Source: Aromatoleum diolicum (lineage in GTDB: Bacteria; Pseudomonadota; Gammaproteobacteria; Burkholderiales; Rhodocyclaceae). From it: a stretch of DNA of 51,105 bases. The DNA is taken from assembly GCF_012910955.1 (NCBI RefSeq), contig NZ_WTVQ01000035.1, positions 1 to 51,105 on the forward strand, in the 5' to 3' direction. This document shows positions 9,954 to 37,781 of this stretch, piece by piece. The notes under the pieces are model-generated. The model was not told the DNA's origin. It was given only the letters and a program-made list of their open reading frames with translations, and made no database searches. Position 1 is the stretch's first letter, and every line of letters begins with the position of its first letter. A program made the position numbers and the translations under genes.

Positions 9954-10396
9954 TCGACTTCCGGCACATCGGGTTCGCGACGCAGCCGTCGACGGTCGCC
10001 GTCGATCCGTGGCGCGTCCAACTTTTCTGCCAAGCGATCGGCGAGGCCGATCCGATCTACCGCGACGAAAGTGCGGCCCGCGACGCCGGCCATCCGGCCT
10101 GCTTGGTACCACCCACCTTCCTGCGCGCGATCGAGGCCGATCATTGCAGCGCCGCGGAAATCCTCGAGATCCTCGGTATTCCGGTCGCCTCCGTAATGCA
10201 TGCCGAGCAGAGCTTCGAGTATCACGCGCCGGTGCATGTCGGCGACCGGATCGAGGTCACGCGAACGCTGACCGACAGCTATGACAAGCGCGACGGCGCG
10301 CTCACCTTCATCGTTCTGGATTCGCACTTCCGACGCGAAGGGGAAACCGTGTGCGACAGCCGCCAGATCATCGTCGTCCGCAACCCGAAGGAATGA
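9950..10396 (+). CDS. MaoC-like dehydratase, N-terminal-type (FAS1-like, PF13452-type)
   Basis: A 148-residue hot-dog-fold protein that resembles the N-terminal half of two-domain MaoC dehydratases (DPIYRDESAARDAGHPACLVPPTFL; a late EYHAPVHVGDRIEV strand). Such halves usually lack the catalytic Asp/His pair and form heterodimers with a catalytic MaoC partner. The partner is the next gene, whose ATG overlaps this stop. Pairs of this type hydrate bulky enoyl-CoAs, for example in steroid side-chain catabolism (ChsH1/ChsH2-type complexes). The start ATG overlaps the stop of the preceding gene, so translation is probably coupled. Confidence 0.78.
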   Translation: MIDFRHIGFATQPSTVAVDPWRVQLFCQAIGEADPIYRDESAARDAGHPACLVPPTFLRAIEADHCSAAEILEILGIPVASVMHAEQSFEYHAPVHVGDRIEVTRTLTDSYDKRDGALTFIVLDSHFRREGETVCDSRQIIVVRNPKE

Positions 10397-15297: not shown

Positions 15298-16095
15298 TCA
15301 GGCCGCAGAGATCCCGCCATTGACGCTGATCACCTGGCCGGTGATGCGCGCCCCCTGCGGACTTGCCAGGAACACGATCAGACTTGCGAGATCATCCGGC
15401 TGCACAACGCCGAGATGCGCCTGCGCTGCCGCGCGCTCGAAAATTTTCCAGCTGAAGGGGTCGGCACGGATGCGATCGTAGGTGAGCGTGCCTTCGATCA
15501 GGGATGGCGTGATAGCGTTCACGCGAATCCCCGTTCGCTTCGCCTCCATCGCGAGCCCCTTGGAGAACATGTTGATGCCGGCCATTGCGGCGCCAATGAC
15601 GGACTCGCCGGGCGTAGCCACCTTGCCGGCATCGGACGAGATGCTGATGATGACCCCGCCCCTTTTCTCGCGCATCCCCGGCATGACCGCCCGACTCATG
15701 ATCAGCGGCCCCATCAACTGCTGCGTCACGATCGAAGGAATGTCTTCGATCGGCGTTTCATGGAAAAGCATCGGGCCGAAAGGACCCACCGTAGCATTGA
15801 CCAGGACATCGACGCTTCCCAACTGCGCGGTCGCCTCGGCAACCGCCCTGACCGCCTCGTCGGCCCGATTCGCATCGGCCTGGATAAACACGACGCGCAC
15901 CCCCGGGTACCGCTCCGCGACCGCGCAGCGCGCCTTTTCGCCGCGTTCAGCGTTGCGTCCGACCAGCCCAATCCCTCTCACACCAGCCGCGGCAAACTGC
16001 TCGGCCGTGGCGAGCCCGACACCAGACGTTCCCCCGGCGATCAGGACACCACACTCATTCAGCGCCGGAACCCAGATATTCTGCGTATTAGTCAT
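15298..16095 (-). CDS. SDR-fold protein lacking the catalytic Tyr/Lys
   Basis: A 265-residue protein with an SDR Rossmann start (LIAGGTSGVGLATA, residues 18-31), a modified NNAG (NATVG, 100-104) and a normal C-terminal TGQVISVNGG. Aligned to classical SDRs, the catalytic Tyr-x3-Lys positions hold Ile167 and Met171 (SVIGAAMAGINMFSKG). The Ser near 152 survives. The protein can probably still bind a dinucleotide but should not act as a normal dehydrogenase. It could be a binding or regulatory subunit, like the non-catalytic SDR partner in BbsCD-type dehydrogenases, or may use another residue. The gap upstream carries a TACACAAGTATA operator-like site and the divergent MarR gene. Confidence 0.8.
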   Translation of the reverse strand: MTNTQNIWVPALNECGVLIAGGTSGVGLATAEQFAAAGVRGIGLVGRNAERGEKARCAVAERYPGVRVVFIQADANRADEAVRAVAEATAQLGSVDVLVNATVGPFGPMLFHETPIEDIPSIVTQQLMGPLIMSRAVMPGMREKRGGVIISISSDAGKVATPGESVIGAAMAGINMFSKGLAMEAKRTGIRVNAITPSLIEGTLTYDRIRADPFSWKIFERAAAQAHLGVVQPDDLASLIVFLASPQGARITGQVISVNGGISAA

Positions 16096-16911: not shown

Positions 16912-17026
16912 GGGCCTGAAGGACGCAGTCTGGCTTCATTGCGGCCTGGCAACCGGGCATGCGGACAACCCCGGTTAGGTGGGTGTTTCCGCACGTTTTC
17001 AGCATCCCGCAGCAAGGACTTTCAAT

Positions 17027-17683
17027 ATGGCTAGCCCCCCCGTCAGGACGCGCTCCCGACTGGCACCCGACGAACGGATTTCGGAGATCATGGCAGTAAC
17101 GCGCCAACTGCTCTCGGAAAAGGGCTATCAGAACGTCGTCACATCCGAAGTCGCCGAACGCTGCGGGATTTCCGAGGGAACGATCTATAAATACTTCGAC
17201 AGCAAGCGCGAGCTCCTCGCTCGCGTCGCGGAGGAATGGTTCGAGGAGATTCTCGGCGCCGACGAGAACCCGCCGCCGGGCGCCGGAGTACGCGAGCGCC
17301 TTCGCCAACTCGTGTGGAAAGGCCTGTCCATCATCCGGCAGGAACCGTCTCTAAGCCGCTTTGTGCTTATGGAACTGCGTTCTGACCCGACCTACCGCTC
17401 AATGCGCATCTACGAGTTGAATCGACGCTTCACCGCGAGGATTGGCGACCTGCTGCAGGAAGCGGTTTCCACAGGGCTTTTTCGCGCGGACGTGTCGGTG
17501 CGTTTGCTGCGCGACATGATCTTCGGCTGCATCGAACATCGGACTTGGGCGTACCTCCGCGGAGAAGGCGACTTCTCGGTCGACGAAGCCGCCGACGGCA
17601 TCACCAATGTGATCTATCGCGGCATGCTGATGCCGGGTGTGCAAGACGAGGGCGCGTCGCCACAGTCGAAGAAGAAGCGTTAA
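17027..17683 (+). CDS. TetR-family transcriptional regulator
   Basis: A 218-residue TetR protein. The N-terminal helix-turn-helix covers about residues 17-62: ERISEIMAVTRQLLSEKGYQNV, then EVAERCGISEGTIYKYFDSKRELL. The C-terminal all-helical domain binds an unknown ligand. ATG 17027 has AAGGA 9 bases upstream and is preferred over an upstream in-frame GTG at 16979. The gene is convergent with the 17.8-23.7 kb minus-strand operon, whose promoter carries two copies of a TetR-style inverted repeat (23765-23783 and 23792-23812). I infer that this protein represses that operon. It may also act at the AGACCGGTCT palindrome at 39470-39479, though the two sequences differ. Confidence 0.88.
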   Translation: MASPPVRTRSRLAPDERISEIMAVTRQLLSEKGYQNVVTSEVAERCGISEGTIYKYFDSKRELLARVAEEWFEEILGADENPPPGAGVRERLRQLVWKGLSIIRQEPSLSRFVLMELRSDPTYRSMRIYELNRRFTARIGDLLQEAVSTGLFRADVSVRLLRDMIFGCIEHRTWAYLRGEGDFSVDEAADGITNVIYRGMLMPGVQDEGASPQSKKKR

Positions 17684-17752: not shown

Positions 17753-18877
17753 TCAGTCCTGATAGACGTATTTGGCCACCAGAAGTCGCTGGATCTGGTT
17801 TGTTCCTTCCCAGATCTGCGTGACCTTGGCGTCGCGCATCATGCGCTCGACCGGGTAATCCTTCATGTAACCGTATCCGCCATGAAGCTGGATGGCATCG
17901 GTTGTCACCGACATGGCCGTATCGGTACAGAAGGTCTTCGCCATCGACGCAAAGCACCGCGCCCGATCGTCATTCGCGCCCGCAATGTCCACCGCGCGGT
18001 ACAGGATCGACCGTGCTGTCTCCACCGCGATGGCCATGTCGGCAACCATTCCTCGCATCATCTGGAAACGCGAAACCTTGCTCTTGAACTGGGTTCGTTC
18101 GGACGTGTAACGCACCGCCTCGTCCAGCGCCCCCTGTGCCAACCCGAGCGCCTGCGCCGACACCAGCGGGCGCGTGTAGGTGAGCGTCTGCATCATGTAC
18201 TCGTAGCCCTTGCCGGGGTCGCCGACGACGCGATCGTCCGGAATCAGGCAATCCTCGAGAAGGATGTCGGCGGTCGGGCTGCCGCGCATACCCATTTTTC
18301 GCTCGTGCCTGCCGATCGAGAATCCGGGGTCGTCACGATGCACCATGAAAACGCCGAATGCCTTTTCCGATATGCGCGCGAGAACAGCATACCAGTCGGA
18401 CCACCCGACATTGGAAATGAAGCGTTTCTGCCCGTTGAGCAGCCATCCGTCACTAACGCGCTCGGCACGCGTCTTCAATCCCGGCAGGTCCGAGCCGCCC
18501 CCCGGCTCGGTCAGGCAAAAACTCGCTCCACACTGACCCGCGGCGACAGAAGGCACGATTTTTTGCTTCAAGGCGTCGCTGCCAAACCAGACCAGCGGGG
18601 TCAGCGCCGCCCACGGAATAAAGAGCACCAGGGCAGACGAGCCGCAGACGCGTGCGATCTCTTCGATAGCAATGACTTGCGAGAGCAAGTCGCCACTTCC
18701 ACCCCCAAGCGCTTCCGGAAACGGCAACCCGTTCAGCTCGAGCGCCTTGTATGCGTCGATCGAAGCCATGGGAAACCGGGCCTCATCATCCACCATGGCA
18801 GCGTGAGGCTTGATCGCCTCCTCCGCCAGTCGCCGAACCTGTTCGCGGAATTCTTCGTGAATGCTGGTCATCGTCAT
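17753..18877 (-). CDS. Acyl-CoA dehydrogenase, short/medium-chain type
   Basis: A 374-residue acyl-CoA dehydrogenase with [15 protein letters not shown] (FAD/substrate contact), NGQKRFISN and the C-terminal [10 protein letters not shown], in which Glu357 is the catalytic base of short- and medium-chain enzymes. It differs from the other three dehydrogenases in this window, which have the LCAD/IVD-type base. It uses FAD and ETF. It is the last gene of the operon that begins with the dehydratase/reductase subunits, 44 bases after the racemase gene, so it probably handles a product or precursor of that enzyme. Confidence 0.9.
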
Positions 18878-18921: not shown

Positions 18922-20109
18922 TTACGCCTTGTTCAGTTTGATGACGCCGGACTCTCCCAATTTGCTGATCTGGTCTGACGAAAAGCCCCAGTCCGCCAGC
19001 GCCGGTTCCGTGTCCGCCCCCATGCGCGGAGGCGGACGGAGCAGTTCGGAACATGTGCGGCTGAATCGCGGTGCCGGCGCCGGATTGAGCACGCCGCCTA
19101 CCTCCACGAATGCCCTGCGCGCGACGTTATGCGGATGTGTCACACACTCGTCCATCGTGAGGACGGGGGCGAAACAGGTGTCGGTGCCTTCGAGAAGCGT
19201 GCACCACTCGTCGCGGGTTCGAGTCTTGAATATCTCGGCGAAGCGCGCATGCATGTGCTCCCAGCTCGCGCGGTCGTTCTGCTCTGGCAGGTCGGCCGCA
19301 TATCGGCCCTCTTCATCCGGCAGGTCGTCCGAATTCAATCCGACGTGTTCAAGCAGCTCTTCGTAGAACCTCGCCTCGACAGCCGCGATCGACACGTGAT
19401 GCCCATCCTTTGTCTCATAGACATTGTAGAAAGGCGCTCCGCCGTCGATGATGTTGCTCCCGCGCTCGCCAGGCCACGCGCCCATCTGCTTCAGCGCGTA
19501 CTGCATCGTCATCAGGCTGGAAACCCCGTCAACGATCGCGGCGTCGACCACCTGGCCCGAACCCGAGGTACGCGCCTCGATCACCGCGGCGAGGAGCCCC
19601 ATCGCGAGGTAAAGTGCCCCGCCACCGAAGTCGCCGACGAGGTTCAGCGGAATCGTCGGCGGCGCACCCTTCTGGCCGATGGCATCGAGTGCGCCGGTGA
19701 GCGCAATGAAGTTGAGATCGTGGCCCGCAGCCCGGTTCAGCGGTCCGTCCTGGCCCCATCCGGTCATGCGCCCGAAGACCAGTCGCGGATTGCCACGCAG
19801 GCAATCCTCCGGACCGAGCCCGAGCTTCTCCATCACACCGGGCCGGAAGCCTTCGATCAGCATGTCGGCGCCCGAGATCAATTGCCGGACGGTGGCGAGA
19901 CCTTGCGCGGATTTCAGGTCGATCGCGACCGAACGCTTGTTTCGGTTCAGAAGATCGAGCTTCGATGGAAAGTCGATGCCTCTGTCGGTCTCGACAAGGC
20001 GGTCGATACGCAGGACGTCGGCGCCCATGTCGGCCAGCAACATGCCGCAAAAGGGTCCCGGCCCGATTCCGGCCATTTCAATAACGCGTATTCCGTGTAG
20101 AGGTCCCAT
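18922..20109 (-). CDS. Alpha-methylacyl-CoA racemase (CaiB/BaiF class III fold)
   Basis: A 395-residue class III CoA-transferase-fold protein. It has the racemase catalytic set rather than the transferase Asp: His130 in GHDLNFIALTGAL, Asp160 in GDFGGGALYL and Glu245 in YETKDGHHVSIAAVEARFYE, close to His126/Asp156/Glu241 of mycobacterial MCR. Family enzymes interconvert (2R)- and (2S)-2-methylacyl-CoA so that stereospecific acyl-CoA dehydrogenases can act. Its presence argues that the substrate of this cluster carries a 2-methyl branch, at least at one stage, as expected for isoprenoid-like or methyl-substituted ring compounds. The next gene downstream is an acyl-CoA dehydrogenase. Confidence 0.85.
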   Translation of the reverse strand: MGPLHGIRVIEMAGIGPGPFCGMLLADMGADVLRIDRLVETDRGIDFPSKLDLLNRNKRSVAIDLKSAQGLATVRQLISGADMLIEGFRPGVMEKLGLGPEDCLRGNPRLVFGRMTGWGQDGPLNRAAGHDLNFIALTGALDAIGQKGAPPTIPLNLVGDFGGGALYLAMGLLAAVIEARTSGSGQVVDAAIVDGVSSLMTMQYALKQMGAWPGERGSNIIDGGAPFYNVYETKDGHHVSIAAVEARFYEELLEHVGLNSDDLPDEEGRYAADLPEQNDRASWEHMHARFAEIFKTRTRDEWCTLLEGTDTCFAPVLTMDECVTHPHNVARRAFVEVGGVLNPAPAPRFSRTCSELLRPPPRMGADTEPALADWGFSSDQISKLGESGVIKLNKA

Positions 20110-20183: not shown

Positions 20184-21092
20184 TCAGGCCTTGAAGGTGA
20201 CCGGAGTTTCCTTCTTGCCGCAGGCGGGCGTGCAGCGCTGCGGATCGGCAAGCAGTTGTTCGAGCTTTCCCTCGACCGCATCGTCGTCGTCGCGCTTGAC
20301 CTTGCTTGCGCTGCGCAGATCGTCCAGCGCGAACAACGCTGCGCCCAGCGCGCCCGCAATCTGCGCCCCGGTCGGGATGATGAGACGCGTTTCCAACGCC
20401 TTTCCGAGGAAATGCACGGCGGCGATGTTCTGTGCGACGCCCCCCGTCATCACGATGGGGTCGTGTTTTCCGACGCGCCCGACCAGGCCGACGGTGCGGC
20501 TTGCAATCGATTGATGGACGCCGGCGAGGATGACCTGCTTCGGCCGACCTTCGGCAAGCAACGAAATCACTTCGGTTTCAGCAAAGGTCGCACACATGCT
20601 CGTGATCGCAACCGTCTCCTCGGCCTTGAGCGCCTCGGCGCCCATATCATCAAGCTCGACATTGACGGCGCGCGCGAGCACTTCGAGAAATTTCCCGGTG
20701 CCGGCTGCACAGCGATCGTTCATCGCGAAACGTGCGACCAGACCGTTACGGTCAAGCGCGATCACCTTGCTGTCCTGCCCGCCGATGTCGATCACCAGCC
20801 TCGCCTCGGGAACAAGCGCTCGCGCGCCCCGCGCATGGCAGGTGATCTCGGTGATGGTTCGGTCGGCAATGTCGAGCATGCGGCGACCGTAACCGGTGCT
20901 GACGACCCTGACGACGGCCGACAGGTTGATGCCCGCCTGCTCGAACGCTCCCCGCAGAGCGGCCCTCACACCCTCATCGCTCACTGCTCCCTTTTGGGAG
21001 ACGCAAGAGGCGACGGTGTTTCCATCCTCATCGAGGATGACTACCTTGGCCGTCGTGGAGCCAAAGTCGATACCTAGCACATGGGACTTCAT
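20184..21092 (-). CDS. ATP-dependent activator of 2-hydroxyacyl-CoA dehydratase / aryl-CoA reductase (BadG/HgdC/BzdQ family)
   Basis: A 302-residue ASKHA-fold ATPase. GIDFGSTTAK (residues 7-16) and DIGGQDSKV (102-110) are the nucleotide-binding loops. Cys128 (NDRCAAGTG) and Cys167 (SMCATFAETEV) are the two family cysteines that, one pair per dimer, hold a [4Fe-4S] cluster. The family uses ATP hydrolysis to drive a low-potential electron into the dehydratase/reductase. A charged C-terminal tail of about 35 residues ends with two extra Cys (CTPACG). Only this one activator gene is present, so a homodimer is expected, whereas class I benzoyl-CoA reductase uses two different ones. ATG 21092 has GAGGAAAAG upstream. 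No ferredoxin gene is nearby. Confidence 0.88.
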   Translation of the reverse strand: MKSHVLGIDFGSTTAKVVILDEDGNTVASCVSQKGAVSDEGVRAALRGAFEQAGINLSAVVRVVSTGYGRRMLDIADRTITEITCHARGARALVPEARLVIDIGGQDSKVIALDRNGLVARFAMNDRCAAGTGKFLEVLARAVNVELDDMGAEALKAEETVAITSMCATFAETEVISLLAEGRPKQVILAGVHQSIASRTVGLVGRVGKHDPIVMTGGVAQNIAAVHFLGKALETRLIIPTGAQIAGALGAALFALDDLRSASKVKRDDDDAVEGKLEQLLADPQRCTPACGKKETPVTFKA

Positions 21093-21120
21093 GATCTTTT
21101 CCTCTGCAGGGGCATCCGGA

Positions 21121-22485
21121 TCAGCGCATCCGGGCGCGGCTGGCGTCGATCGCCTCCAGCATCGCTTCGACGCGGCTGCTGACGACCTCGTCCTTGTAGA
21201 AGGTCTCGTCAACCATGTCGCCCTCGAACATCGCGACCGGCAGGCCGAGGCGCTTGCCGACGGCGTCGGCGATCATGTACTGGGGGTAAGAGAAGGCCCG
21301 GCAGGTTCGCGCACCGTGCAGGATCAGACCGTCGATCTCGTAGTACTCGCAGTGCTCGATGATCTTCTCGATCACTTGCGGTGCCGAGATGCTAATGGGG
21401 CAGGTAATGTAGTTCTGCGCCATGCCGTCGAGCGGGTCGCGCAAGTCTATGACCTGTGGCTCCTGCCAGAAGCCCATGTGGGTGTAGCGACCGGCGACCA
21501 TGCAGGCGTCGTAGCCGGCAAACTTGTCGGACAGCCACCCGATCTTGTTCCAGTTCATGATGCCATCCCACCACAGGCGGTACTTCTCGACTGGTACCGA
21601 GCCGATGCCTTGGGCGATACGCGATTCGATCTCGGCCTTCTTCTGCTCGAAGTAGTGCACGATCTCCGGCCCGCCGGGCAGGAAGTTGACCGGCGCGATG
21701 CTGTTGGTCCACTCGAAGAAACTGGCCGGCGACGGCCGGGCCTTGCACAGGCGCATGGCCTCCAGGCGCAACTCGGCGGCCCGCTTGGTGTATTTCATGA
21801 TCTCGGACAGTCGGTCCCAATCGTAGGGCTTGCCGGTGATGCCCTCAATGAATCGCACGCAGTCCTGCAGCTGCTTCTTCAGGAACGCCACTTTTTCGCG
21901 GAACTCCGGCCCGCTCATGTACTTCGCCGAGGACTTGTTGCCCCACACCCAGTCCATCGAGATATTGAAGATCGGCACCTTCTTGCCGAAGGTGCGGTAC
22001 AGCTCGTTATCCCATTGCTGGCCGGTGCTGCAGAAGGGGTAGGCGCTGATGATCATGTCCGGCGCCGGAATGCGCGAGCCCAGTGTGCGTGCGTCGACGT
22101 TCAGCAGCGTCTGGGCCTCAACAGTGGAACTCTGATTCATCACACCGCAGCCAATGTGCGTGCGGGCATAGGAACAGAGCTCGCGGTCATAGCCGAGCGT
22201 TTCCATGTGGGCCTGCGGCGCGGCCGATTCCTTGCGCGCGGCCAGCAGGGCAGCAGCAGCCTCGCCGTGGCACCAGGCGATGTCAGCGGCCTGCAGGATG
22301 GGGTTGAGCTGGATGCCTTCGGTCCAGCACACCAGCCGGCCCTCCTCCTTGGCGCGGAAGAGGTCTTCCCAGTAGGCATTGACCATCTGGTTGTTCAGCT
22401 TGGTCGCCTGCAGGCGGTTTGCCTTCTTGGCGATGGGCGGCTCGGCGCCCAGTATTCTCTGTTCGGGGGTAATGATCGCGCTCAT
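21121..22485 (-). CDS. 2-hydroxyacyl-CoA dehydratase / benzoyl-CoA reductase-like subunit (BcrB/BzdO-like)
   Basis: A 454-residue HgdB/BcrB-family subunit. Cys104, Cys113 and Cys152 (YPFCSTGQQWD) are candidate Fe-S ligands. HGARTCRAFSYPQY and the C-terminal EGDMVDETFYKDE resemble BcrB/BzdO of benzoyl-CoA reductases; the length is also close to theirs (about 440-450). Such subunits bind the substrate and a [4Fe-4S] cluster and receive an electron from the activator. Members either dehydrate (R)-2-hydroxyacyl-CoA or reduce aromatic acyl-CoA. The sequence features lean to the reductase side but the operon lacks the second activator-like subunit. The exact reaction is therefore open. It is between its partner subunit and the activator in one operon. 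Confidence 0.85.
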   Translation of the reverse strand: MSAIITPEQRILGAEPPIAKKANRLQATKLNNQMVNAYWEDLFRAKEEGRLVCWTEGIQLNPILQAADIAWCHGEAAAALLAARKESAAPQAHMETLGYDRELCSYARTHIGCGVMNQSSTVEAQTLLNVDARTLGSRIPAPDMIISAYPFCSTGQQWDNELYRTFGKKVPIFNISMDWVWGNKSSAKYMSGPEFREKVAFLKKQLQDCVRFIEGITGKPYDWDRLSEIMKYTKRAAELRLEAMRLCKARPSPASFFEWTNSIAPVNFLPGGPEIVHYFEQKKAEIESRIAQGIGSVPVEKYRLWWDGIMNWNKIGWLSDKFAGYDACMVAGRYTHMGFWQEPQVIDLRDPLDGMAQNYITCPISISAPQVIEKIIEHCEYYEIDGLILHGARTCRAFSYPQYMIADAVGKRLGLPVAMFEGDMVDETFYKDEVVSSRVEAMLEAIDASRARMR

Positions 22486-22516
22486 GTCTATTTCTCCGGA
22501 TCTCGCTCGTTGGGGG

Positions 22517-23686
22517 TCAGGCTGCGACGGCTCTTGCAGCGCGCTGTACCTTGATCATCTCGACGAAGGACTCGACCTTCGTACGCACGTTTTCCATCGC
22601 GACGCCATCGTGCTCGGTCTCGATCATGAGGTGCGGCACGTCGTTGCGTTCGAAGGCTGCCTTGATGCGGGGATAGGCGAAGTAATGCGGTTCACAGAAC
22701 TTGACCAGCAGGACCACCAGCCCTTGCGCACCGCACCGATCCACGGCGCCAAGCAGCCATTCCTCCCAATCGACTTCCGGATCGATCCGGGTCGGACACG
22801 GGACGTTGTCGTTCTTGCGGATGTAGGCCGTCGCAAGGGCTACGATCGGGTCACCGATCCCCGCGTCGACGTCGGTGGAGACGTAGCGATAGCCGGTGTA
22901 GAGGTCATCGTCGACGATCGTCGCGCCACACTCCTCGATCAGATCGAGAATCTCGGGTCGCGGGGCGTGGCACAAGTGCCCCGACACGTAGATCGCCACC
23001 GTGTCCGAGCGGGGCGCCGTCGACGTCTTGAGGGAAGCGATCAACTCGCGCAGCAGCGCGTTGTGCGTCTCCTTATCCATCACCATGCTCGACTTGACGA
23101 TGTGCTGCATCTGCGACGCACGGAGCTGAATCTGACCCGTCCTGCGCATCTGGTACAGGTCACGGATCAGGCGACGGTTTTCGTTGAATACGCTGATGCT
23201 GTGGCGCAGCGCCTCCTCGGTCACGACGACGCCGAGCACCTCCTCGAGGTCGGCGACGAGCTCGCGCAAGGTCTTGACCGAGCTTTCGAGTGACCAGGGC
23301 TGGCGCAGGGAGGCGATCAACTGATGAAAATGGATCGTGGTCTCCGGCCGCGAAATCCGGATTACGTCGGCGGCACTCAGCAACTGAACGCAGTGGTCGG
23401 TAAACATGATCGCATCAAGAAAACCGAGCTGATCCTCAGTGACCTGGTCCACGATGCTGCGGGTGTAGCCGCAGAAGAACGGGTACATCGCGCCGCCACC
23501 GCTCGTGATCGCGTCGGGCATTTCTTGGACGATTACCGGCAAGGCGCCGGTGGCGTGGATGATCTCCGCCGGGAAATGCATCGGAAGAGTCCCCACCGCC
23601 TTGACGCCGCGCTCCTGCTTCCACGCCTTGACGTGTTCGTAAGGCCGTTGCGCCGCTTGCGCAAATTTATCCAGAACCGTGTTCAT
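22517..23686 (-). CDS. 2-hydroxyacyl-CoA dehydratase / benzoyl-CoA reductase-like subunit (BcrC/BzdN-like)
   Basis: A 389-residue partner subunit of the same family. The N-terminus has the family segment GTLPMHFPAEIIHATGALPV (residues 32-51); Cys72 (PFFCGYTRS) and Cys99 (TDHCVQL) are likely cluster ligands, and LLVKFCEPHYFAYPRIK near residue 325 is typical of the C-terminal lobe. Length matches BcrC/BzdN (about 380). It starts the operon: ATG 23686 follows AGGAGAAAAC, and a strong promoter with two operators lies upstream. With the next two genes it gives a complete minimal set (two structural subunits plus one activator) for radical-type dehydratase or reductase chemistry, which works only without oxygen; the cluster therefore probably serves anaerobic growth. 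Confidence 0.85.
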   Translation of the reverse strand: MNTVLDKFAQAAQRPYEHVKAWKQERGVKAVGTLPMHFPAEIIHATGALPVIVQEMPDAITSGGGAMYPFFCGYTRSIVDQVTEDQLGFLDAIMFTDHCVQLLSAADVIRISRPETTIHFHQLIASLRQPWSLESSVKTLRELVADLEEVLGVVVTEEALRHSISVFNENRRLIRDLYQMRRTGQIQLRASQMQHIVKSSMVMDKETHNALLRELIASLKTSTAPRSDTVAIYVSGHLCHAPRPEILDLIEECGATIVDDDLYTGYRYVSTDVDAGIGDPIVALATAYIRKNDNVPCPTRIDPEVDWEEWLLGAVDRCGAQGLVVLLVKFCEPHYFAYPRIKAAFERNDVPHLMIETEHDGVAMENVRTKVESFVEMIKVQRAARAVAA

Positions 23687-23997: not shown

Positions 23998-24104
23998 TCG
24001 CTATAGAACAGCTTTTCGCTGCGGACAGCGCAGCAGCCCCGGCTACGCGCGACTCACTGCGAAACGACTGACTGCAACCACGAATCAGGCAAAAGGAGAA
24101 GGTG

Positions 24105-25004
24105 ATGGGATACAGGTCCGTGTTCCGTGAAGGCGTGTTCGACGGTCAGGTTGTAATCATCACAGGCGGAGGCAGCGGCATCGGACGCTGCACCGCTCAT
24201 GAGCTGAGTGCCCTGGGCGCGACGGTTGCGATCGTAGGTCGCGACCCGGAGAAACTCGCAAGCGTGAAGGGTGAGATCGAGGCGGAAGGCGGACGTGTGA
24301 GCACTCATGTCTGCGACATCCGCGAGGAATCGCAAGTCATCGAAACGATCGATGCGGTGCTGGCGACCCACGGCCGCATCGACGCGCTGGTGAACAACGC
24401 CGGCGGTCAATACCGAAAGGCCTTGAAGGAGATCAGTACAAAAGGCTTTGAGGCAGTGGTGCGCAATAACCTGACGGGGGGCTTCATCTTCATGCGGGAA
24501 ACCTACAACCGCTGGATGGAGAACCATGGCGGAGCCATCGTCAACATCATCGCCGACATGTGGAACGGCTGGCCGAACTACGCCCACTCCGGCGCAGCGC
24601 GGGCGGGGATGTGGAATCTGACTGAAAGTGCGGCGTCCGAATGGGCCCCTTCTGGTGTGCGCATCAATGCGGTGGCGGTCGGCGGCGTCGCAAGCAGCGG
24701 CTTCGATACCTACACGCCCGAAGCGCAAAAGGAAATCCTCAAATTTCCCACCAAGATCCCGATGCAACGCTACGGGACCGTTTCCGAGATCTCCGCCGCA
24801 ATTGTCTATCTGCTCTCCCCCGCTGCTGCATTCATTACCGGCAGTTGCATCCGTGTTGACGGCGGAGCACCAAACGCACGCGTCTGTTACAACGATTTCA
24901 CCCCCCACCACAAATCCAGGCCGTTCAACGGATTCCATCTCGACGCTGAACCGAAGCTGCTTGCCGACGGCCCGAAAACAGAGACGGACACCGACAGGCG
25001 CTAG
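24105..25004 (+). CDS. PECR-like trans-2-enoyl-CoA reductase / dienoyl-CoA reductase (SDR)
   Basis: A 299-residue SDR with ITGGGSGIGR (residues 19-28) and NNAGGQY near 97. The HSGAARAGMWNLTESAASEWA segment is characteristic of the peroxisomal trans-2-enoyl-CoA reductase / 2,4-dienoyl-CoA reductase branch, which departs from the classical Tyr-x3-Lys site. These enzymes reduce C=C bonds of enoyl- or dienoyl-CoAs with NADPH. Here it might remove a misplaced double bond left by partial ring reduction or branched-chain oxidation. ATG 24105 follows AAAAGGAG; a GTG three bases upstream is a weaker choice. It is divergent from the dehydratase operon and is followed, 92 bases on, by an acyl-CoA dehydrogenase gene. 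Confidence 0.85.
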   Translation: MGYRSVFREGVFDGQVVIITGGGSGIGRCTAHELSALGATVAIVGRDPEKLASVKGEIEAEGGRVSTHVCDIREESQVIETIDAVLATHGRIDALVNNAGGQYRKALKEISTKGFEAVVRNNLTGGFIFMRETYNRWMENHGGAIVNIIADMWNGWPNYAHSGAARAGMWNLTESAASEWAPSGVRINAVAVGGVASSGFDTYTPEAQKEILKFPTKIPMQRYGTVSEISAAIVYLLSPAAAFITGSCIRVDGGAPNARVCYNDFTPHHKSRPFNGFHLDAEPKLLADGPKTETDTDRR

Positions 25005-25096
25005 ATACAGCCTCACACGCACGGCCGCGGGCGCGCGTGCCCACGCCACAGGATTTGCAATGCCACCTCAAGAAACGAGACTGAAAGGAAGTGAAC

Positions 25097-26242
25097 ATGC
25101 TCGCTCAGCGCCCCATTTACGATCAGGAACACAATCTCTTTCGCGACACGGTTCGCCGTTTCGCCGCGGAGGAAATTGCGCCCCATTTCGCACGCTGGGA
25201 GGAGGCAGGCATCGTCGATCGTTCTTACTGGGCGAAAGGCGCCGAAACCGGACTCCTCTGCCCTCAGGTACCTGAAACCTATGGCGGACTCGGCGGTGAC
25301 TTCCGGTTCAATGCGGTGATCATCGAGGAGCTTTGGTACGCCGGCTTCGCGGGACCGGCTGCCGATTTTTCAGTGCATAACGACGTCTGTTGCGGCTATC
25401 TCATGTCCTACGGGACGGAGGAACAGAAGCAAAAGTGGCTACCGCGGATGATCTCCGGCGAGACCGTTTGCGCCATCGCGATGACCGAGCCGGGCACCGG
25501 CAGCGATCTGCAAGGCATTCGCACCCGGGCCGCGCGTGAGGGCGACGAATACGTCATTTCCGGACAGAAAACCTTCATTTCCAATGGCCAGATGTGTGAT
25601 CTGGTGATCGTCGTTACCCGTACGAACCGCGAAGGCGGGTCGCGCGGCATGAGCCTGATCCTCGTGGAAACGGACCGTCCCGGCTTCCGTCGCGGCCGCA
25701 ATCTTGACAAACTCGGGCACCTGTCAGCCGATACGTCGGAATTGTTTTTCGACGACGTCCGCGTCCCGGTCGAGAATCTGCTCGGTGCCGAAGGTGGGGC
25801 GATGGCTCAATTGATGACCGAGTTGCCGCAGGAACGCCTGACCATCGCGGTCCAGTCCATGGCGGCGGCGCAAAAGGCCTACGACATTACCGTGGATTAC
25901 GTCCGCCAGCGTACGGCCTTCGGCAAGGCAATCGCCGAAATGCAGAATACGCGGTTCAAGCTCGCCGACATCAAGGCGGAACTCGCTGTCGGCTGGGCTT
26001 TTATCGACCAGTGTCTGGCGAAGCACGTGAAGCACGAGCTGACGCAAGTTGATGCATCGATGGCGAAACTGTGGGCGACCGAGATGCAGGGGCGCATGGT
26101 TGATCAGTGCGTGCAGTTTTTTGGTGGATACGGCTTCATGCGCGAGTACGAGATCTGCCGGCTCTATGCCGACGCCCGGGTCATGCGGATTTACGGCGGG
26201 GCCTCTGAAATCATGCGTGAACTCATCTCGCGCAACCTGTAA
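25097..26242 (+). CDS. Acyl-CoA dehydrogenase, long-chain/isovaleryl type
   Basis: A 381-residue acyl-CoA dehydrogenase, with CAIAMTEPGTGSDLQG and SGQKTFISNG for FAD and substrate contact. The catalytic Glu is expected in LPQERLTIA, and the C-terminus has GGYGFMREYEICRLYADARV and YGGASEIMRELI. It is the closest relative in the window of the enzyme at 13187-14350. ATG 25097 sits 6 bases after AAGGAAG; an upstream in-frame GTG at 25091 is less likely. It follows the PECR-like gene and ends at a clear hairpin terminator, so these two genes form one unit. Substrate unknown. Confidence 0.9.
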   Translation: MLAQRPIYDQEHNLFRDTVRRFAAEEIAPHFARWEEAGIVDRSYWAKGAETGLLCPQVPETYGGLGGDFRFNAVIIEELWYAGFAGPAADFSVHNDVCCGYLMSYGTEEQKQKWLPRMISGETVCAIAMTEPGTGSDLQGIRTRAAREGDEYVISGQKTFISNGQMCDLVIVVTRTNREGGSRGMSLILVETDRPGFRRGRNLDKLGHLSADTSELFFDDVRVPVENLLGAEGGAMAQLMTELPQERLTIAVQSMAAAQKAYDITVDYVRQRTAFGKAIAEMQNTRFKLADIKAELAVGWAFIDQCLAKHVKHELTQVDASMAKLWATEMQGRMVDQCVQFFGGYGFMREYEICRLYADARVMRIYGGASEIMRELISRNL

Positions 26243-27314: not shown

Positions 27315-29771
27315 TCATGCCGCCAGCCGTTCCGCCTCTCCCGCAAGAATCGGCGTCGCTACCGGCTTTGGTGAAAGCAGGAAGTACGACAGTGCGGGAA
27401 CCAGCACCAGTGCGCCAAACATGTTCACGATGAACATGAAAGTCAGCAGGATTCCCATGTCGGCCTGGAACTTGATCGGAGACCATGCCCAGGTTACGAC
27501 CCCTGCACCGAGCGTGACACCCACCAGCGCGACGATGCGGCCGGTGAATTGCAGCGTCTTCTTGTAGGCCATCGCGAGACTGAGCCCGCTGCGCTGATAC
27601 GCGAGCTGCGCGGAAAGCAGGTAAAGCGCGTAATCGACGCCGATCCCCACGCCCAATGCGATAACGGGCAAGGTCGCAACCTTGATGCCCATGCCCAGGA
27701 AGACCATCAGGGCCTCGCAAAGAATCGACGTGAGCACCAGCGGAACGACTGCGACCAGCACCGCACGCCAGCTGCGGAACGCGATGTAGCACAGGGCCAT
27801 GACCGCCACATAGACGTAGAGCAGCATCGTGCGGTTGGCCTCCCTGACGGTAATGTTGGTGGCGGCCTCGATGCCGGAATTTCCCGCCGCGAGCAGGAAC
27901 TGGCGTTCATCGACGCTGTGTTCGGCAGCAAATTCGCTCGCCGCCTGCACGACGCGCTCCAGCGTCTCGGCCCGATGGTCCGCCAGATAGGCAACCACCG
28001 GCACGATCGAGCATTCCTTGTTTGCCAGATCGGGATTGTTGATCAGGGACTGATTGCCAGCGAAATTGGCGGTCTCCTGATTGCGCGCGACGGTCAGCCA
28101 CTTGGAACTGCCGTCGTACAGGCCGGCGGTGACCACGCGCACGGAATCGGCCAGCGACACGGTGGTCTGCACGCCGGGAACCTGCCGCAGGTGCCAACCG
28201 AGACGATCGACTTCGGTCAGTGTCTTGTAATCCACACAGCCATTGGGCGGCGTTTTCAGGATCACGGCAAACTGGTCGCTGGATAGCGAGTAGTTGCCCG
28301 TGATGTAGGCATTGTCGCGGTTGTAGCGGGATTCGGGCCTGAGCTCGGGGGCCCCCGCGTCGAGATCGCCGATCTTCAGGTTCAGACTGACGACAAATCC
28401 GCCCACCGCAAGCACTGCGGCGACCAGGACCACCTTTGACGCCCAGCGCCGCTCCGTAAAGCGTTCGAGGAACAGCCAGAACTTGCCGAACCCCTTGCCG
28501 CGCAACTCCTCGCGCTCAAGGCGCAGGCTGCGCTCGGCCGCCGTGCTGCTGACGCCGACATAGGAGAGCAGCACCGGCAGCAGCACCAGGTTGGTCACGA
28601 TCAGGATCGCCACGCCGATGCTCGCCGTGATCGCCAGGTCCTTGATGACCGGAAAGTCGATCACCATCAGCACCGCAAACCCCACTGCGTCCGCCAACAG
28701 CGCCGTCAGGCCCGCCAGAAACAGCCGCCGGAACGTATATCGGGCGGCCACCAGCCGGTGTGTCCCCCGCCCCACGTCCTGCAGGATCCCGTTCATCTTC
28801 TGTGCGCCGTGGGATACGCCGATGGCGAACACGAGGAAGGGCACGAGTACCGAGAAAGGATCGATTTCGAAGCCGAGCGCCGACACCAGCCCGAGTTGCC
28901 ACAGCACGGCAATCAGCGAGCACACCACCACCACAAGCGTACTGCGCACACAACGCGTATAGGCAAAGATGATTGCCGTGGCAATCAGGGCCGAAGCAAC
29001 AAAATACGTCGCCATCTGGGCGAGGCCATCCATCAGATCCCCGACCAGTTTCGCAAATCCGATGATGTGGATCTTGAGCTTCGGACCATCCTTCGCATTT
29101 TCGTACTTCGCCCGAATGCTCTCTTCCAGCGTATGCGAAAAGCTGCGGTAATCGAGCCGCGCCATGGTTTGCGGATCGCGATCGAGCAGCGGGACGACGA
29201 TCATGCTCGATTTCTCATTATTCGCGACCAGATTCTGGGCGGTGCTCGAACGGGCGAGGTTCTGGCGCAGCTGCGCGATGCTCTGCGGCGATCCATCATA
29301 GTCGTCGGCCATCACCGGGTCGCCCTGAAACCCCTCCTCGGTGACTTCGACCCAGCGCACGGCCGGCGTCCACAGGGACTTCACGCCCGCCCGGTCCACA
29401 CCGGGAGTCAGAATCAGTTCGTCGCTGATCTCGCGCAGCGTCGCGAGGTACTGGGGATCGTAGATATCCCCCTCGGTGTTCTCCACCACCACGCGGATGG
29501 CGTTACCGAGACCGCGCAGGTCCGCCTGATTGGCCAAGTAGTTCTTAACGAACGGATGATTCTGCGGAATCATCTTCTCGAAGCTGGCATTCAGCACCAG
29601 TTGGGTAGCGAGAAAGTATCCCAGCACCGCCGTGGCGATCAGGCAAATCAGCATGACCGCCAAGCGGTTGTTGAAGAGGAGTCGTTCCAGCCAGCTCCCC
29701 GAGCTCGAATCAAAATCCTTCAAGCTCGGCACAACCGGCATTACGTCAGGGTTATTCGTTCCAACGGCCAT
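27315..29771 (-). CDS. RND/MMPL-superfamily transporter
   Basis: An 818-residue membrane protein of the MMPL/HAE3-like RND family. It has an N-terminal transmembrane helix (near residues 38-56), a large periplasmic loop, and a block of five or six helices (about 255-440) with GVSHGAQKMNG and DAVGFAVLM. A second soluble loop and a second helix block (about 640-805) follow, with GVGIGVDYALYLL. Such proton-driven permeases move hydrophobic substrates through the inner membrane or extract them from it. Together with the YCF48, DUF1329 and DUF1302 genes it forms a cassette often found in bacteria that degrade steroids, terpenes and long-chain compounds. Last gene of the four-gene minus-strand operon. 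Direction of transport is not known from sequence. Confidence 0.87.
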   Translation of the reverse strand: MAVGTNNPDVMPVVPSLKDFDSSSGSWLERLLFNNRLAVMLICLIATAVLGYFLATQLVLNASFEKMIPQNHPFVKNYLANQADLRGLGNAIRVVVENTEGDIYDPQYLATLREISDELILTPGVDRAGVKSLWTPAVRWVEVTEEGFQGDPVMADDYDGSPQSIAQLRQNLARSSTAQNLVANNEKSSMIVVPLLDRDPQTMARLDYRSFSHTLEESIRAKYENAKDGPKLKIHIIGFAKLVGDLMDGLAQMATYFVASALIATAIIFAYTRCVRSTLVVVVCSLIAVLWQLGLVSALGFEIDPFSVLVPFLVFAIGVSHGAQKMNGILQDVGRGTHRLVAARYTFRRLFLAGLTALLADAVGFAVLMVIDFPVIKDLAITASIGVAILIVTNLVLLPVLLSYVGVSSTAAERSLRLEREELRGKGFGKFWLFLERFTERRWASKVVLVAAVLAVGGFVVSLNLKIGDLDAGAPELRPESRYNRDNAYITGNYSLSSDQFAVILKTPPNGCVDYKTLTEVDRLGWHLRQVPGVQTTVSLADSVRVVTAGLYDGSSKWLTVARNQETANFAGNQSLINNPDLANKECSIVPVVAYLADHRAETLERVVQAASEFAAEHSVDERQFLLAAGNSGIEAATNITVREANRTMLLYVYVAVMALCYIAFRSWRAVLVAVVPLVLTSILCEALMVFLGMGIKVATLPVIALGVGIGVDYALYLLSAQLAYQRSGLSLAMAYKKTLQFTGRIVALVGVTLGAGVVTWAWSPIKFQADMGILLTFMFIVNMFGALVLVPALSYFLLSPKPVATPILAGEAERLAA

Positions 29772-29807
29772 GGCGGATTCTCTATCTCGTAATCGGGGGG
29801 GCAGCGC

Positions 29808-30878
29808 CTACTTCTTGAGCGGCTGAATGTTGACGCCGCGGGTTCCAACGAGCACCAATGCATGTGTACCGACCGGGGCCACGGCGCTGGCCGGCAGCGC
29901 CTGTGCCATTGGCGAGGGCGTAAAGGACCGACCGTTGTCGGCAGACATGAGCACGTCACCGCGCTGACTCACGAGAACGATGCGGCCGTCTTCGGTCAGC
30001 GTCGCCCCGGTGATCGTCACGTTCAAACCGGTCAACACCTTGTGCCACTGAGCACCGCCGTCCTCGCTCCGAAACACATTGCCGCGCAAGCCGAACACGA
30101 CAACCGACTGTTCGCGTCCGGTCAGCCCGAAGAAGGTTCCGGGGTAGTCGACCGACACCGAACGAAAACGCTGCGCTTCCTTGTCGAGCTTGAGCACCAT
30201 GCCGCGCTCGCCCACGAGGTAGAGCCCGTTGCCGGCACGCTGGATCGAGGAGAAATGAAGTTGCTCCGGATTTTCGGTGCGATCGAACCACGGGGTCCAG
30301 GTCTTGCCGCCGTCGCTCGTTTGGAAAATCAGGTTGAACACACCCACGGCGTATCCGTCAGTCTCACTGTCGAACCACACGGACAGGAAGGGCTTGTCGG
30401 CCCCCTCCTCGGCAATGCGCTGTGCCGCCGCCCGCAGTTCTTCCAGCTGCCTGGCATCGATACCCTTACCCTCGAACCTGGCGTAGTACTCTTGCATGAC
30501 TTGCCCGAGCGCTCGTCCGTCGAGTTGCTTGATCCAGCTTTTCCCGCCATCGGTTGTCGCCAGCACTACGCCGTCGTGTCCAACCGCCCAGCCTTTTTGC
30601 GACGTCGGAAAGTGCATCGCCGTCAGGTCAGAACTTACCGGCACCTCGGCCTGCGTCCACGTCTTGCCCGCATCATCAGAGTAAAGAATGTGGCCGCGCT
30701 GACCTGCGACGACCAGTCGCTCGCCCGCATAGGCCACCGCATTCAGCAAGCTTCGTGGGGCAAGCGCGCTTTTCGTTGCCGGCCGGTCCAGTGGATCCTG
30801 AAACGCCCATGATGAACACGCGACGGTCATCAATACGAGCACGCTCGACAGCGTCCGGATTCGCTCACGAAATTTCAT
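29808..30878 (-). CDS. YCF48/BNR-repeat periplasmic protein
   Basis: A 356-residue protein with a signal peptide (KFRERIRTLSSVLVLMTVACSSWA) and repeated beta-propeller blades of the type GQRGHILYSDDAGKTW, GHDGVVLATTDGGKSW, FQTSDGGKTW and RGNVFRSEDGGAQW. This is the YCF48/Asp-box (BNR) family, related to photosystem II assembly factor HCF136. In this cassette it is exported and probably supports assembly or linkage of the envelope complex with the RND protein. ATG 30878 is preceded by GGAGGACATGT; an earlier in-frame GTG at 30896 precedes the ribosome site and is rejected. The Asp-box pattern is clear; function is inference. Confidence 0.85.
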   Translation of the reverse strand: MKFRERIRTLSSVLVLMTVACSSWAFQDPLDRPATKSALAPRSLLNAVAYAGERLVVAGQRGHILYSDDAGKTWTQAEVPVSSDLTAMHFPTSQKGWAVGHDGVVLATTDGGKSWIKQLDGRALGQVMQEYYARFEGKGIDARQLEELRAAAQRIAEEGADKPFLSVWFDSETDGYAVGVFNLIFQTSDGGKTWTPWFDRTENPEQLHFSSIQRAGNGLYLVGERGMVLKLDKEAQRFRSVSVDYPGTFFGLTGREQSVVVFGLRGNVFRSEDGGAQWHKVLTGLNVTITGATLTEDGRIVLVSQRGDVLMSADNGRSFTPSPMAQALPASAVAPVGTHALVLVGTRGVNIQPLKK

Positions 30879-30970
30879 TACATGTCCTCCGAGCACCGAT
30901 ATCCTCGCCGCCCCGACTCATTCACGCCCCCGACGACAAGCTCGACGCCGCCGGGAGCCCTTTCAGAAAA

Positions 30971-32314
30971 TTAGCGGACTCCGCCACCAGCCAGAGCTTC
31001 CGGCGCCCATTCGCGGTCGGGAAGCGGTTGCACATGGCGCATGCCGCTGGTTTCGGCAGTGTAAAAATTCATCGCGTAGATACCTGAGATCAGGTCATAG
31101 AAACCGTGCATGTCCGCCGTCGGCGCGGGGATTTCATAGCTCGGTGTCATGTAGGCGAAGCCGGCGCGGTAAAGCTGACCGCGCAAGTCGTATTGATCGC
31201 TGGCGAGCGCCACCCACGAGTCCTCGTCGAGGTAGAGCACGCGCTTGCTGTAGATATGACGTTTACCTTCGGCGAGCGTCGCTTCGACGACCCATACCCG
31301 ATGCAGCTCCCAGCGAACCTCGTCGGGATTCAGGTGCATCGGCTTGAAGAGGTCGTCCGCCTTCGACTGGTAGGCCATCTTGTAGGTGTTGTAGGGAACG
31401 TACATTTCCTTCTTGCCCACGAGCTTGAAGTTGAAACGCTCCATCGAACCGAAGAACAGCCAGGTATCGTCATAAGTGGCGCTACCGCCCATAGAGGGGT
31501 TGGGCGTATCGAATGCGAGCGACGGCGCCAGCTTTGTGCGACGCTGCCCCGGCAGGTAGGCCCAAGCCCGGCGCCCCTTCTCCGCTGCATTAATGGCGTC
31601 ATGAATCATGATGACTTCGCCACTGCGCCGCACGGGCTCCTTGTATTCGCTCTTCACGCGCAGCAGCAGTTCGGACGGCTTGCCGTCCTCCCAGTAGGGG
31701 TAGTCGGCCGAATACGTCCCGCCGGATGTCAGCGTCGGTCGTCCGGACGAATCGACGTAAAGTCCCTTGTAGTCGTACACCAGGCTACGGCCGCCGAAGC
31801 GGGTGAGGTGGTTCCACATCGCCTCGAAACCGTCCTTCGGGATCGGGAACGGAATGCCGGCGTGGCAGCCCTCCAGCGACAAACCGCCATTTGTGGCCTT
31901 TGCCGTCGTCGCGCATTTCAAGGTGTTATCGGTGACGTACTTTGGAAAAGCCGCGGTACGATGGGTCGGATACACGTCGATGCGATACGACGGATACTTC
32001 TTCATCAACGCTTTGGTTCCATCCGTCAGCTTTTCGGCGTGCTGATCCATGTTCTTGGCGTCGATGGAAACGGTCGGCTTCTCATTCGCGAACGGATCGG
32101 GGCGTATGCCACTGCCCTTCTGGTAGCCCTGCGGAGCGCTCGTGAGCCCTCCCCCATACGCCGGAATCGTGCCACCCGCATTGCCGGCTTTTTCGGCCCC
32201 CACCAGCGTGAGCGTGCTGCCGAGCTTGGCCGCTTCGTCCGCAGTGACTGCCGCCGCCGCGACACCCACATATGTGGCTGCCGCGGCACCCATCAACAAG
32301 TATTTGATGTTCAT
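30971..32314 (-). CDS. DUF1329 family outer-membrane-associated protein (LolB/LppC-like fold)
   Basis: A 447-residue protein with a signal peptide cleaved after about residue 22 (MNIKYLLMGAAAATYVGVAAAA). Family markers are GTIPAYGGGL near the start, WNHLTRFGG, YLPGQRRTKLAPS and DEDSWVALASDQYD. DUF1329 proteins always travel with DUF1302 proteins; in terpene, steroid and hydrocarbon degraders they are thought to act in the periplasm or at the outer membrane in uptake of hydrophobic compounds. It starts 19 bases after the DUF1302 gene. GGAGACGACAG precedes the ATG. Confidence 0.87.
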   Translation of the reverse strand: MNIKYLLMGAAAATYVGVAAAAVTADEAAKLGSTLTLVGAEKAGNAGGTIPAYGGGLTSAPQGYQKGSGIRPDPFANEKPTVSIDAKNMDQHAEKLTDGTKALMKKYPSYRIDVYPTHRTAAFPKYVTDNTLKCATTAKATNGGLSLEGCHAGIPFPIPKDGFEAMWNHLTRFGGRSLVYDYKGLYVDSSGRPTLTSGGTYSADYPYWEDGKPSELLLRVKSEYKEPVRRSGEVIMIHDAINAAEKGRRAWAYLPGQRRTKLAPSLAFDTPNPSMGGSATYDDTWLFFGSMERFNFKLVGKKEMYVPYNTYKMAYQSKADDLFKPMHLNPDEVRWELHRVWVVEATLAEGKRHIYSKRVLYLDEDSWVALASDQYDLRGQLYRAGFAYMTPSYEIPAPTADMHGFYDLISGIYAMNFYTAETSGMRHVQPLPDREWAPEALAGGGVR

Positions 32315-32333
32315 CTGTCGTCTCCTGCGGAAA

Positions 32334-34076: not shown

Positions 34077-34201
34077 TTTTTTCACCCCTTCGGGCCATAT
34101 CGTGATTAACAAGCGCCTTCCTCAGCTGCCACTGCACGAAGACTCTGGCTTGCGCAGTTCGAAGATCATCGCATCGAGCGTGAAATCTCGTACGCAGCTC
34201 T

Positions 34202-37720: not shown

Positions 37721-37781
37721 GGCAGTCATTCCTTGTATCGGCACGGCGCTGTCACATTCGGCTCGCGACGTGGGGGCATTG

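Follow-up and report, generated by a model that had tools for sequence, protein, structure and literature searches.

A distinct clade of putative dehydratase-like radical enzymes with one activase, encoded within a probable terpene-type gene island of Aromatoleum diolicum

In two accounts (PMC11971306, PMC11574389), the benzoyl-CoA reductase/2-hydroxyacyl-CoA dehydratase (BCR/HAD) family is described from organisms that live as strict or facultative anaerobes. According to the latter, the dehydratases pair an alpha-beta heterodimer with an activase homodimer, to the bridge of which each monomer contributes two cysteines. (R)-2-hydroxyisocaproyl-CoA dehydratase, HadBC plus HadI (3o3m, 4eht), combines two HGD-D subunits with a single activase, whereas the class I benzoyl-CoA reductases (Bcr, Bzd, Mbd), which share the fold family, use two different activator subunits. 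The double-cubane cluster protein and its activator (6eno, 7yyl) are alike in fold and in being driven by ATP. In Castellaniella defragrans, ring opening of perillyl-CoA is the task of the mrc genes (PMC4109377). Genes reminiscent of all these systems meet in the stretch of DNA considered here, the entire contig C75 (NZ_WTVQ01000035.1; 51,105 bases, hereafter the window) of the 5.15-Mb genome of Aromatoleum diolicum (G000). It carries at 20184..23686 a set of two HGD-D subunit genes and one activase gene, the predicted products of which are well supported, by sequence comparison, as a distinct clade with one activator.

An earlier note on this DNA, made from its letters alone, had recognised a two-subunit enzyme and an activator in this interval, and three minus-strand genes were indeed found there. 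The beta subunit (389 aa, HadC/BzdN-like, expected to transfer electrons) is encoded at 22517..23686 and scores 242 bits against Pfam HGD-D; its start was taken at the ATG behind GGAGA, a longer frame beginning at 23755. The alpha subunit (454 aa, HadB/BzdO-like, expected to be catalytic; 21121..22485) reaches 187 bits with the same model, the cut-off of which is 28.4 bits. The activase, an ATPase of 302 aa counted from its ATG and expected to form a homodimer, lies at 20184..21092 (BcrAD_BadFG 204 bits, cut-off 31.5 bits; the listed frame opens at TTG, 21212). Spacers of 31 and 28 bases separate beta from alpha and alpha from activase, and a Shine-Dalgarno-like stretch stands ahead of each gene. 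The two HGD-D genes adjoin, as for a HAD heterodimer, and a corresponding complex is predicted from this arrangement.

Maximum-likelihood trees were built from 66 alpha rows and 64 beta rows, after 23 loci (near-copies or repeats) and, for beta, one frame of contig C72 had been dropped. The window proteins and their relatives from three phyla (Actinomycetota, Pseudomonadota and Bacillota) form a single clade, with support of 100/100 in the alpha tree and 100/99 in the beta tree. The sister of this clade is locus L055, from a genome of the class of Desulfallas (100/99 and 100/100, respectively). Bcr, Bzd and Mbd constitute a separate clade each, and the window clade falls outside all three in both subunits. 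The deep branching order is unsure because long branches meet there (HadB, L055 and the double-cubane protein). The phylogeny of both subunits, which the earlier note had proposed as a check, thus places them outside every characterised clade, and the clade would be new within a known enzyme family, an assignment that is well supported with HadBC as the only named dehydratase compared. Membership of the benzoyl-CoA reductases was ruled out by clade, activator count and beta ligands; their activity is kept below as a rival function. Two further loci may be mentioned here: the sister locus itself (genome G1231, region L109), where the beta subunit is 39% identical, and L052:3-1736 on plasmid QY30, which holds a second beta gene and a partial second alpha gene of the same clade.

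The cluster ligands were compared at the positions that Fuchs et al. 2025 (PMC11971306) define for BzdN and BzdO. Of the 20 beta rows of the clade, 18 read xCCxCC at the six positions taken from BzdN, the other two being incomplete, and HadC carries the same pattern. All six cysteines are present in the Bzd rows (3/3) and in the double-cubane protein, whereas xCCxxC was found in every Mbd row (5/5) and in seven of the eight Bcr rows (one incomplete). Six cysteines as a general mark of the reductases were therefore rejected, since Mbd and Bcr rows also lack two or more of them. The window beta subunit holds four of the six cysteines of the double-cubane cluster and was not counted as a member of that group. 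In the alpha subunit, Cys104, Cys152, Cys395, Glu75 and Gly155 were located. The cysteine triad and the Glu are kept in 19/19 clade rows and, as Bcr, Bzd and Mbd rows keep them too, do not discriminate. Position 131 is Gly in 19/19 clade rows, in contrast to His in Bzd and Phe in Mbd and Bcr, and Val or Leu stands there in 27 of the 30 rows called HAD-like without proof of function. Gly155 and Ser153 are specific to the clade (19/19). Cys128 and Cys167 of the activase are its likely cluster ligands; the pair does not discriminate, because it is kept not only in 19/19 clade rows but also in 59/59 others, some of which are near-copies of the clade.

Comparison with family models gave a less uniform picture. 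The likeness to BcrB/BzdO and BcrC/BzdN claimed in the earlier note holds at the level of the family and no further, as neither subunit, nor the activase, reached a Bcr, Bzd or Had equivalog cut-off among the NCBIfam models, the matches to which included no Mbd model. The best score of alpha was with HadB (173 bits), against 131 of 487 bits for BcrB and 78 of 449 for BzdO, and beta gained 129 of 454 bits with BzdN. Among solved chains, alpha matched HadB with 120 bits, MbdO with 72 and BzdO with 62; beta matched HadC with 138, BzdN with 126 and MbdN with 122; and the activase matched HadI (4eht) with 225, MbdQ with 210, HgdC with 196 and MbdP with 138. The nearest solved chains of all three proteins are hence HadB, HadC and HadI, which speaks for an enzyme of dehydratase type. 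The poor structure model of alpha (predicted local distance difference test, pLDDT, 59.6) has HadB first in its fold ranking.

A dehydratase-like enzyme is preferred, with modest confidence, to an aryl-CoA reductase because of the HadC-like beta cysteines, the single activator and the place outside Bcr, Bzd and Mbd, and its dehydratase-like nature may be regarded as moderately supported. The earlier note had offered both, and the dehydratase type fits somewhat better by clades and beta cysteines, neither being proven. The explanation favoured here, at slightly under an even chance, is a dehydratase-like radical enzyme of a new BCR/HAD-family clade that acts on a ring or branched hydroxyacyl-CoA. 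In common with HadBC and HadI, the window set has two HGD-D subunits, a single activase, a three-cysteine alpha site and the HadC-type beta pattern; it differs in its separate clade, in an identity of only ∼24-26% in fold alignments, and in the short-chain dehydrogenase/reductase (SDR), racemase and ring-cleavage genes that surround it.

Several observations weigh against this explanation. The clade lies outside HadBC, the sole named dehydratase of the trees, in both subunits, and no characterised dehydratase clade includes it. In the alpha tree it joins, weakly (92/58), with Bcr, Mbd and four HAD-like rows, and HadC itself, in the beta tree, clusters with Bcr and Mbd (96/80), so that the trees do not set the clade closer to HadBC than to Bcr/Mbd. 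The HadB and HadC equivalog cut-offs were missed by far (173 of 750 and 164 of 700 bits), and the best NCBIfam score of beta was not with HadC but with BcrC (174.5 bits, cut-off 421). The beta structure model (pLDDT 79.2) ranks BzdN (E 3.4e-23) over HadC (1.0e-21), and fold ranking of the models does not separate dehydratase from reductase. Among the 26 other HAD-like beta rows (12 with six cysteines, 7 with xCCxxC, 5 with xCCCxC), xCCxCC occurs in just two, one of which is the sister L055. Classical dehydratase operons contain a CoA transferase and a 2-hydroxyacid dehydrogenase, and the window has a racemase instead. Finally, the published limonene route includes no 2-hydroxyacyl-CoA of the classical kind.

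Part of the same evidence would suit an ATP-dependent reductase acting on the CoA ester of an aromatic or dienoic ring, for instance on 4-isopropylbenzoyl-CoA derived from p-cymene, with one homodimeric activator and with Mrc/Bad-type genes opening the ring afterwards. The top score of beta with BcrC, the weak placement of the clade nearest the group with Bcr and Mbd in the alpha tree and an activase almost as near to MbdQ as to HadI all point in this direction, as do the BadI/Mrc-type genes of the window; near relatives from the Nevskia family, AlkB-type, alcohol dehydrogenase and aldehyde dehydrogenase genes could convert a methyl group to the carboxylate. The class I reductases also share with the window set the alpha cysteine triad with Glu and ring-catabolic surroundings. 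However, both subunits lie outside the Bcr, Bzd and Mbd clades, their scores are far under the BcrB, BzdO, BcrC and BzdN cut-offs, there is one activator rather than two, the beta ligands are unlike those of all three reductase types, and Gly at position 131 sets the clade apart. Such a reductase is accordingly considered rather unlikely.

The number of activators bears directly on this choice. As the earlier note had it, the window operon encodes a single activase, not the two different activator subunits of a class I benzoyl-CoA reductase. The genome as a whole has seven activator-type and eight HGD-D genes, and the other six activators accompany, on other contigs, two sets of bzd type and one that is double-cubane-like. 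The bzd-type sets are close to the solved chains (alpha 84 and 70% identical to BzdO, beta 91 and 87% to BzdN), and the first of their alpha subunits passes the BzdO cut-off; in the third set, on contig C72, an activase is fused to a double-cubane-like domain that scores under the cut-off of its model. The set of the window is separate from all of these. A search with PF01869 in ten genomes or records returned exactly one gene in each of three metagenome-assembled genomes (MAGs) of stated affiliation and unstated completeness, G861 (Comamonadaceae), G862 (Sphingomonadaceae) and G864 (Nevskia). One gene was also found on each of the Rhodococcus, Sphingopyxis and QY30 plasmids, where the search covered the plasmid sequence and not the chromosome. 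Several genes exceeded the cut-off in G860 (two, one of them weak), G863 (six), G865 (seven) and pAZKH (three). The one-gene relatives make a strong, if not final, case that a single activase would suffice for the clade enzyme, and a second activator encoded elsewhere, which the earlier note had named as a refutation, is unlikely in view of the three MAGs. Regarding the fusion on C72, a single frame (L016:8568-10712) holds the activase domain (225 bits) and the double-cubane-like HGD-D domain (219 of 350 bits) and adjoins another activase and an HGD-D gene. A like fusion is hinted at in KH32C and A. toluolicum, where activase matches fall in long open frames of 778 and 693 aa, respectively.

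If the favoured dehydratase-like reading is correct, the activase homodimer would accept an electron from a carrier of low potential whose gene lies elsewhere and, spending ATP, hand it to the beta subunit. From the beta cluster the electron would pass to the [4Fe-4S] cluster of alpha (Cys104/152/395), where the CoA ester might become a ketyl radical, lose its hydroxyl group and release the electron for another round, and the linked SDR may set or interconvert the hydroxyl and keto groups. The analysis shows the genes, their family, the ligand residues, the clade, the conserved partners and the likeness to a monoterpene island; the homodimer, the electron path, the dehydration, the position of the hydroxyl and the substrate are inferred. 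In keeping with the earlier note, a scan of window frames of 50-260 codons for three Cys motifs gave two matches, neither of which looks like a ferredoxin. A 2-oxoacid:acceptor oxidoreductase (alpha and beta; L116:7978-10891) shares the A. toluolicum contig with the module at a distance of tens of kb and is a possible source of low-potential electrons.

An enzyme of the same fold might also bring about another radical outcome: a gamma-hydroxyl could be removed vinylogously from a cyclic enoyl-CoA, or a double bond shifted, as oxygenated menthanes or those with a different unsaturation would demand. The clade-specific Gly155 and Ser153 and the frequent SDR partner would agree with such chemistry, as would the limonene-island table of PMC4109377, which names no gene for it; both the substrate and this kind of ketyl chemistry are, however, conjectural, and the proposal seems improbable.

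The surroundings of the core are partly recognisable, although the earlier note had seen in them no pathway it knew. According to PMC4109377, the mrc/ctm/geo island of C. defragrans 65Phen comprises MrcD/E/F/G-type genes, an RND-type transporter, acetoacetyl-CoA synthetase, acyl-CoA dehydrogenases and a citrate-lyase-like gene, and MrcE and MrcD have their closest matches in Azoarcus sp. KH32C (88 and 85%). On the KH32C plasmid pAZKH, genes of the Mrc kinds follow one another as the accession numbers would predict, and from this order they are inferred to be the published matches. In the window, mrcDEF-type genes stand together on the plus strand at 6742-9953: an MrcD counterpart of the ring hydroxyacyl dehydrogenase type (6742..7518; 69% to the KH32C gene that is equated with the published relative of MrcD), an MrcE/BadI counterpart, a ring-opening hydrolase (7570..8367; 94% to KH32C), and an MrcF counterpart, a hydratase (8415..9953; 42% over 521 columns to the MrcF-like protein of KH32C). 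They are followed on the same strand by an MrcG counterpart of MaoC type (9953..10396; 43% over 145 columns to the KH32C MaoC); the last two are thus merely 42-43% identical to their KH32C equivalents. The BadI-like gene announced by the earlier note is confirmed in kind (406 bits, below the model's cut-off of 467.6), and the BadH-like one only loosely, by the SDR at 15298-16095 (130 of 431 bits).

On the minus strand, the core is followed by a family III gene at 18922..20109, which scores 386 bits with the racemase 8rmw and 132 with the best CoA transferase. It is nearer to the racemases, a Had/Fld-type CoA transferase being ruled out by these scores, and the alpha-methylacyl-CoA racemase reported in this operon by the earlier note is thereby upheld. 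Domain scans further identified an acyl-CoA dehydrogenase (17753..18877, minus strand). The SDR of the conserved core (15298..16095, minus; Pfam adh_short) and a TetR-type regulator (16979..17683, plus; recognised by eye and by likeness to a KH32C gene) lie beyond it. Divergent from the core, on the plus strand, are an SDR (24102..25004) and an acyl-CoA dehydrogenase (25091..26242, domain scan). The former had been called an enoyl-CoA reductase; an SDR is indeed present, and its best model is a general SDR one (182.5 bits), with 178 of 318 bits for the 2,4-dienoyl-CoA reductase PRK07677.

More distant minus-strand genes code for an acetoacetate-CoA ligase (1792..3798), which passes its equivalog cut-off (739 of 520.9 bits) and is 40% identical to the KH32C one, and for MMPL, YCF48-like, DUF1329 and DUF1302 proteins (27315..34112), likely to transport a hydrophobic substrate to judge from the RND set listed in PMC4109377. 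An AMP-forming acyl-CoA ligase found by domain scan (34433..36445, minus) is the candidate substrate ligase, with 60-67% homologs near five of 18 relative loci (KH32C excluded) and 47% and 53% homologs near two more. An acyl-CoA dehydrogenase, a CitE-like CoA ester lyase and a MaoC hydratase (36554..39163, minus) have pAZKH counterparts of 89, 67 and 78%. Further identities to KH32C amount to 86% for another acyl-CoA dehydrogenase, 75% for a thiolase and 70% for an SDR. At window 4030-5472, an HMG-CoA-synthase/KAS III-like domain is fused to ChsH2-type zinc-ribbon and OB domains; the gene adjoins an SCP2-type thiolase and could serve a retro-aldol or thiolytic step on branched chains. A large regulator-like protein with BTAD, AAA and TPR domains is encoded on the far side of the cluster (42652-46560).

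Taken together, the resemblance to the Castellaniella monoterpene island gives moderate support to the core being part of a terpene-type island. Table 1 of PMC4109377, on the limonene island, has no entry named as an activase or as a gene of 2-hydroxyacyl-CoA-dehydratase type; MaoC-like dehydratases and several rows of "hypothetical protein" are listed there. The module looks like an addition for substrates beyond the limonene route. A broader alicyclic-acid role is also possible, and counts against a terpene substrate, because KH32C is cited in PMC9795900 as a carrier of the bad-ali cluster for cyclohexanecarboxylate and pAZKH has two places resembling the BadI-type gene of the window. Third-position guanine-plus-cytosine content (GC), determined for A. 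toluolicum L116-L119 and the window genes, is mostly 0.79-0.92 upstream and 0.71-0.83 in the listed island genes; foreign origin is only hinted at, because the value for alpha itself is 0.87 and values are low on the right flank as well.

The module is rare. The alpha subunit is 99.8% identical to that of Aromatoleum toluolicum (L042), and an exact short-peptide scan of genome contigs revealed seven loci, 50-100% identical. When a close relative was defined as at least 48% identical, sampled whole genomes gave one in 300 for the order and one in 398 for the phylum, both the window's own genome. In the family, two of 199 genomes had one, the window's own and G483, and no match was found in four further members of the genus. 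Elsewhere, a close alpha was found in one of 296 genomes of the order of G862 (G862 itself). Among 113 genomes of the class to which Desulfallas belongs, Desulfallas alone has a close alpha, with distant matches at 26-33% in 26 others. The Nevskia MAG and eight more of the 58 genomes sampled from its family carry one, and one of these nine has a second copy (48%). Eight plasmid records match, five of them closely: KH32C (99%, on pAZKH), QY30 (57%), Rhodococcus ruber (49%) and two Sphingopyxis plasmids (48%). Such a scattered pattern would be expected of a mobile catabolic trait.

Conserved partners were counted at 19 relative loci, one of them a 5-kb contig (L042 excluded, KH32C included). Beta, alpha and activase occur together at all 19, an SDR at 16, a TetR gene of KH32C type at 14, an AlkB-type gene at nine and a racemase-like gene at eight. 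The racemase was consequently dropped as a core member, one of its eight homologs being at 35%, and the core of SDR, beta, alpha and activase recurs on Rhodococcus and Sphingopyxis plasmids and in the Nevskia-MAG family. Loci of that family also have homologs of the window's downstream genes at 70-84% identity, including a thiolase at 70% (L094), a MaoC at 73% (L104) and acyl-CoA dehydrogenases at 77-84% (L100, L104). This recurrence beside catabolic genes in Actinomycetota, Pseudomonadota and Bacillota makes it very improbable that the set encodes an ordinary 2-hydroxyacyl-CoA dehydratase that acts on acids of the amino-acid or lactate type and sits in the island by chance; fold family, single activase and an acetyl-CoA hydrolase/transferase-family gene at 10281-12044 (domain scan) would suit this idea, whereas the separate clade and the operon neighbours scanned, a racemase and an acyl-CoA dehydrogenase, do not.

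An AlkB-type gene lies on the activase strand at each of the nine main-type loci in the family of the Nevskia MAG (L048, L094-L101) and is not present at the second-type copy L102. It directly follows the activase in L048, L095 and L100, and an alcohol dehydrogenase or MarR-like gene intervenes in the other six. The nearest solved relatives of its product are alkane 1-monooxygenases (90 and 80 bits). A nearby frame (L095:11763-12662) gave no Pfam or NCBIfam match. A search of 19 genomes or records for the AlkB-type gene yielded ten matches, eight from the Nevskia-MAG family and the others from G862, on a different contig from the module, and a Sphingopyxis plasmid, ∼40 kb off; none was found in the Aromatoleum-type genomes G000, G483 and G865, in G860, G861 and G863, or on plasmids pAZKH and QY30 and that of Rhodococcus. 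The link to an oxygenase is thus seen in one family, with two sphingomonads as possible further cases, and does not extend to every carrier.

These loci raise the possibility that the clade comprises ATP-dependent ketyl-radical enzymes which, served by a single activator homodimer, act on CoA esters of terpenoid-type rings in aerobes after an oxygen-dependent first step by the AlkB-type monooxygenase encoded alongside, Aromatoleum-like denitrifiers running the same core behind an oxygen-independent entry. This is plausible yet doubtful, and is made less likely by the missing AlkB-type gene near several carriers, by the BcrC score of beta and by the weak joining with Bcr and Mbd in the alpha tree. 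The carriers are presumed to be aerobes, in part from the oxygenase gene, and a function of the core together with oxygen is speculative. Among 16 genomes searched for marks of anaerobic life, NarG exceeded its cut-off in A. toluolicum only and NrdD in Desulfallas only, and neither did so in the window's genome. A. toluolicum also has, at L117:9050-13350, a molybdopterin oxidoreductase-like gene with an FeS subunit and then a membrane-protein-like frame, below every equivalog cut-off; this set is a candidate oxygen-independent hydrocarbon-activating or respiratory complex.

Literature searches, which covered few subscription papers and are weak in that respect, found no description of this module. 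The enzyme could supply a step so far missing from the degradation of alicyclic rings, those of terpenoids included. It would be surprising if the radical enzyme and the neighbouring oxygenase shared one pathway, and a radical enzyme of low potential that works after an initial oxygenase step would, if true, be new. A branch often accompanied by an SDR gene, and by an oxygenase gene in one family, would widen the range of settings in which low-potential radical chemistry seems possible, and the protection of such clusters from oxygen would become testable in easily grown strains.

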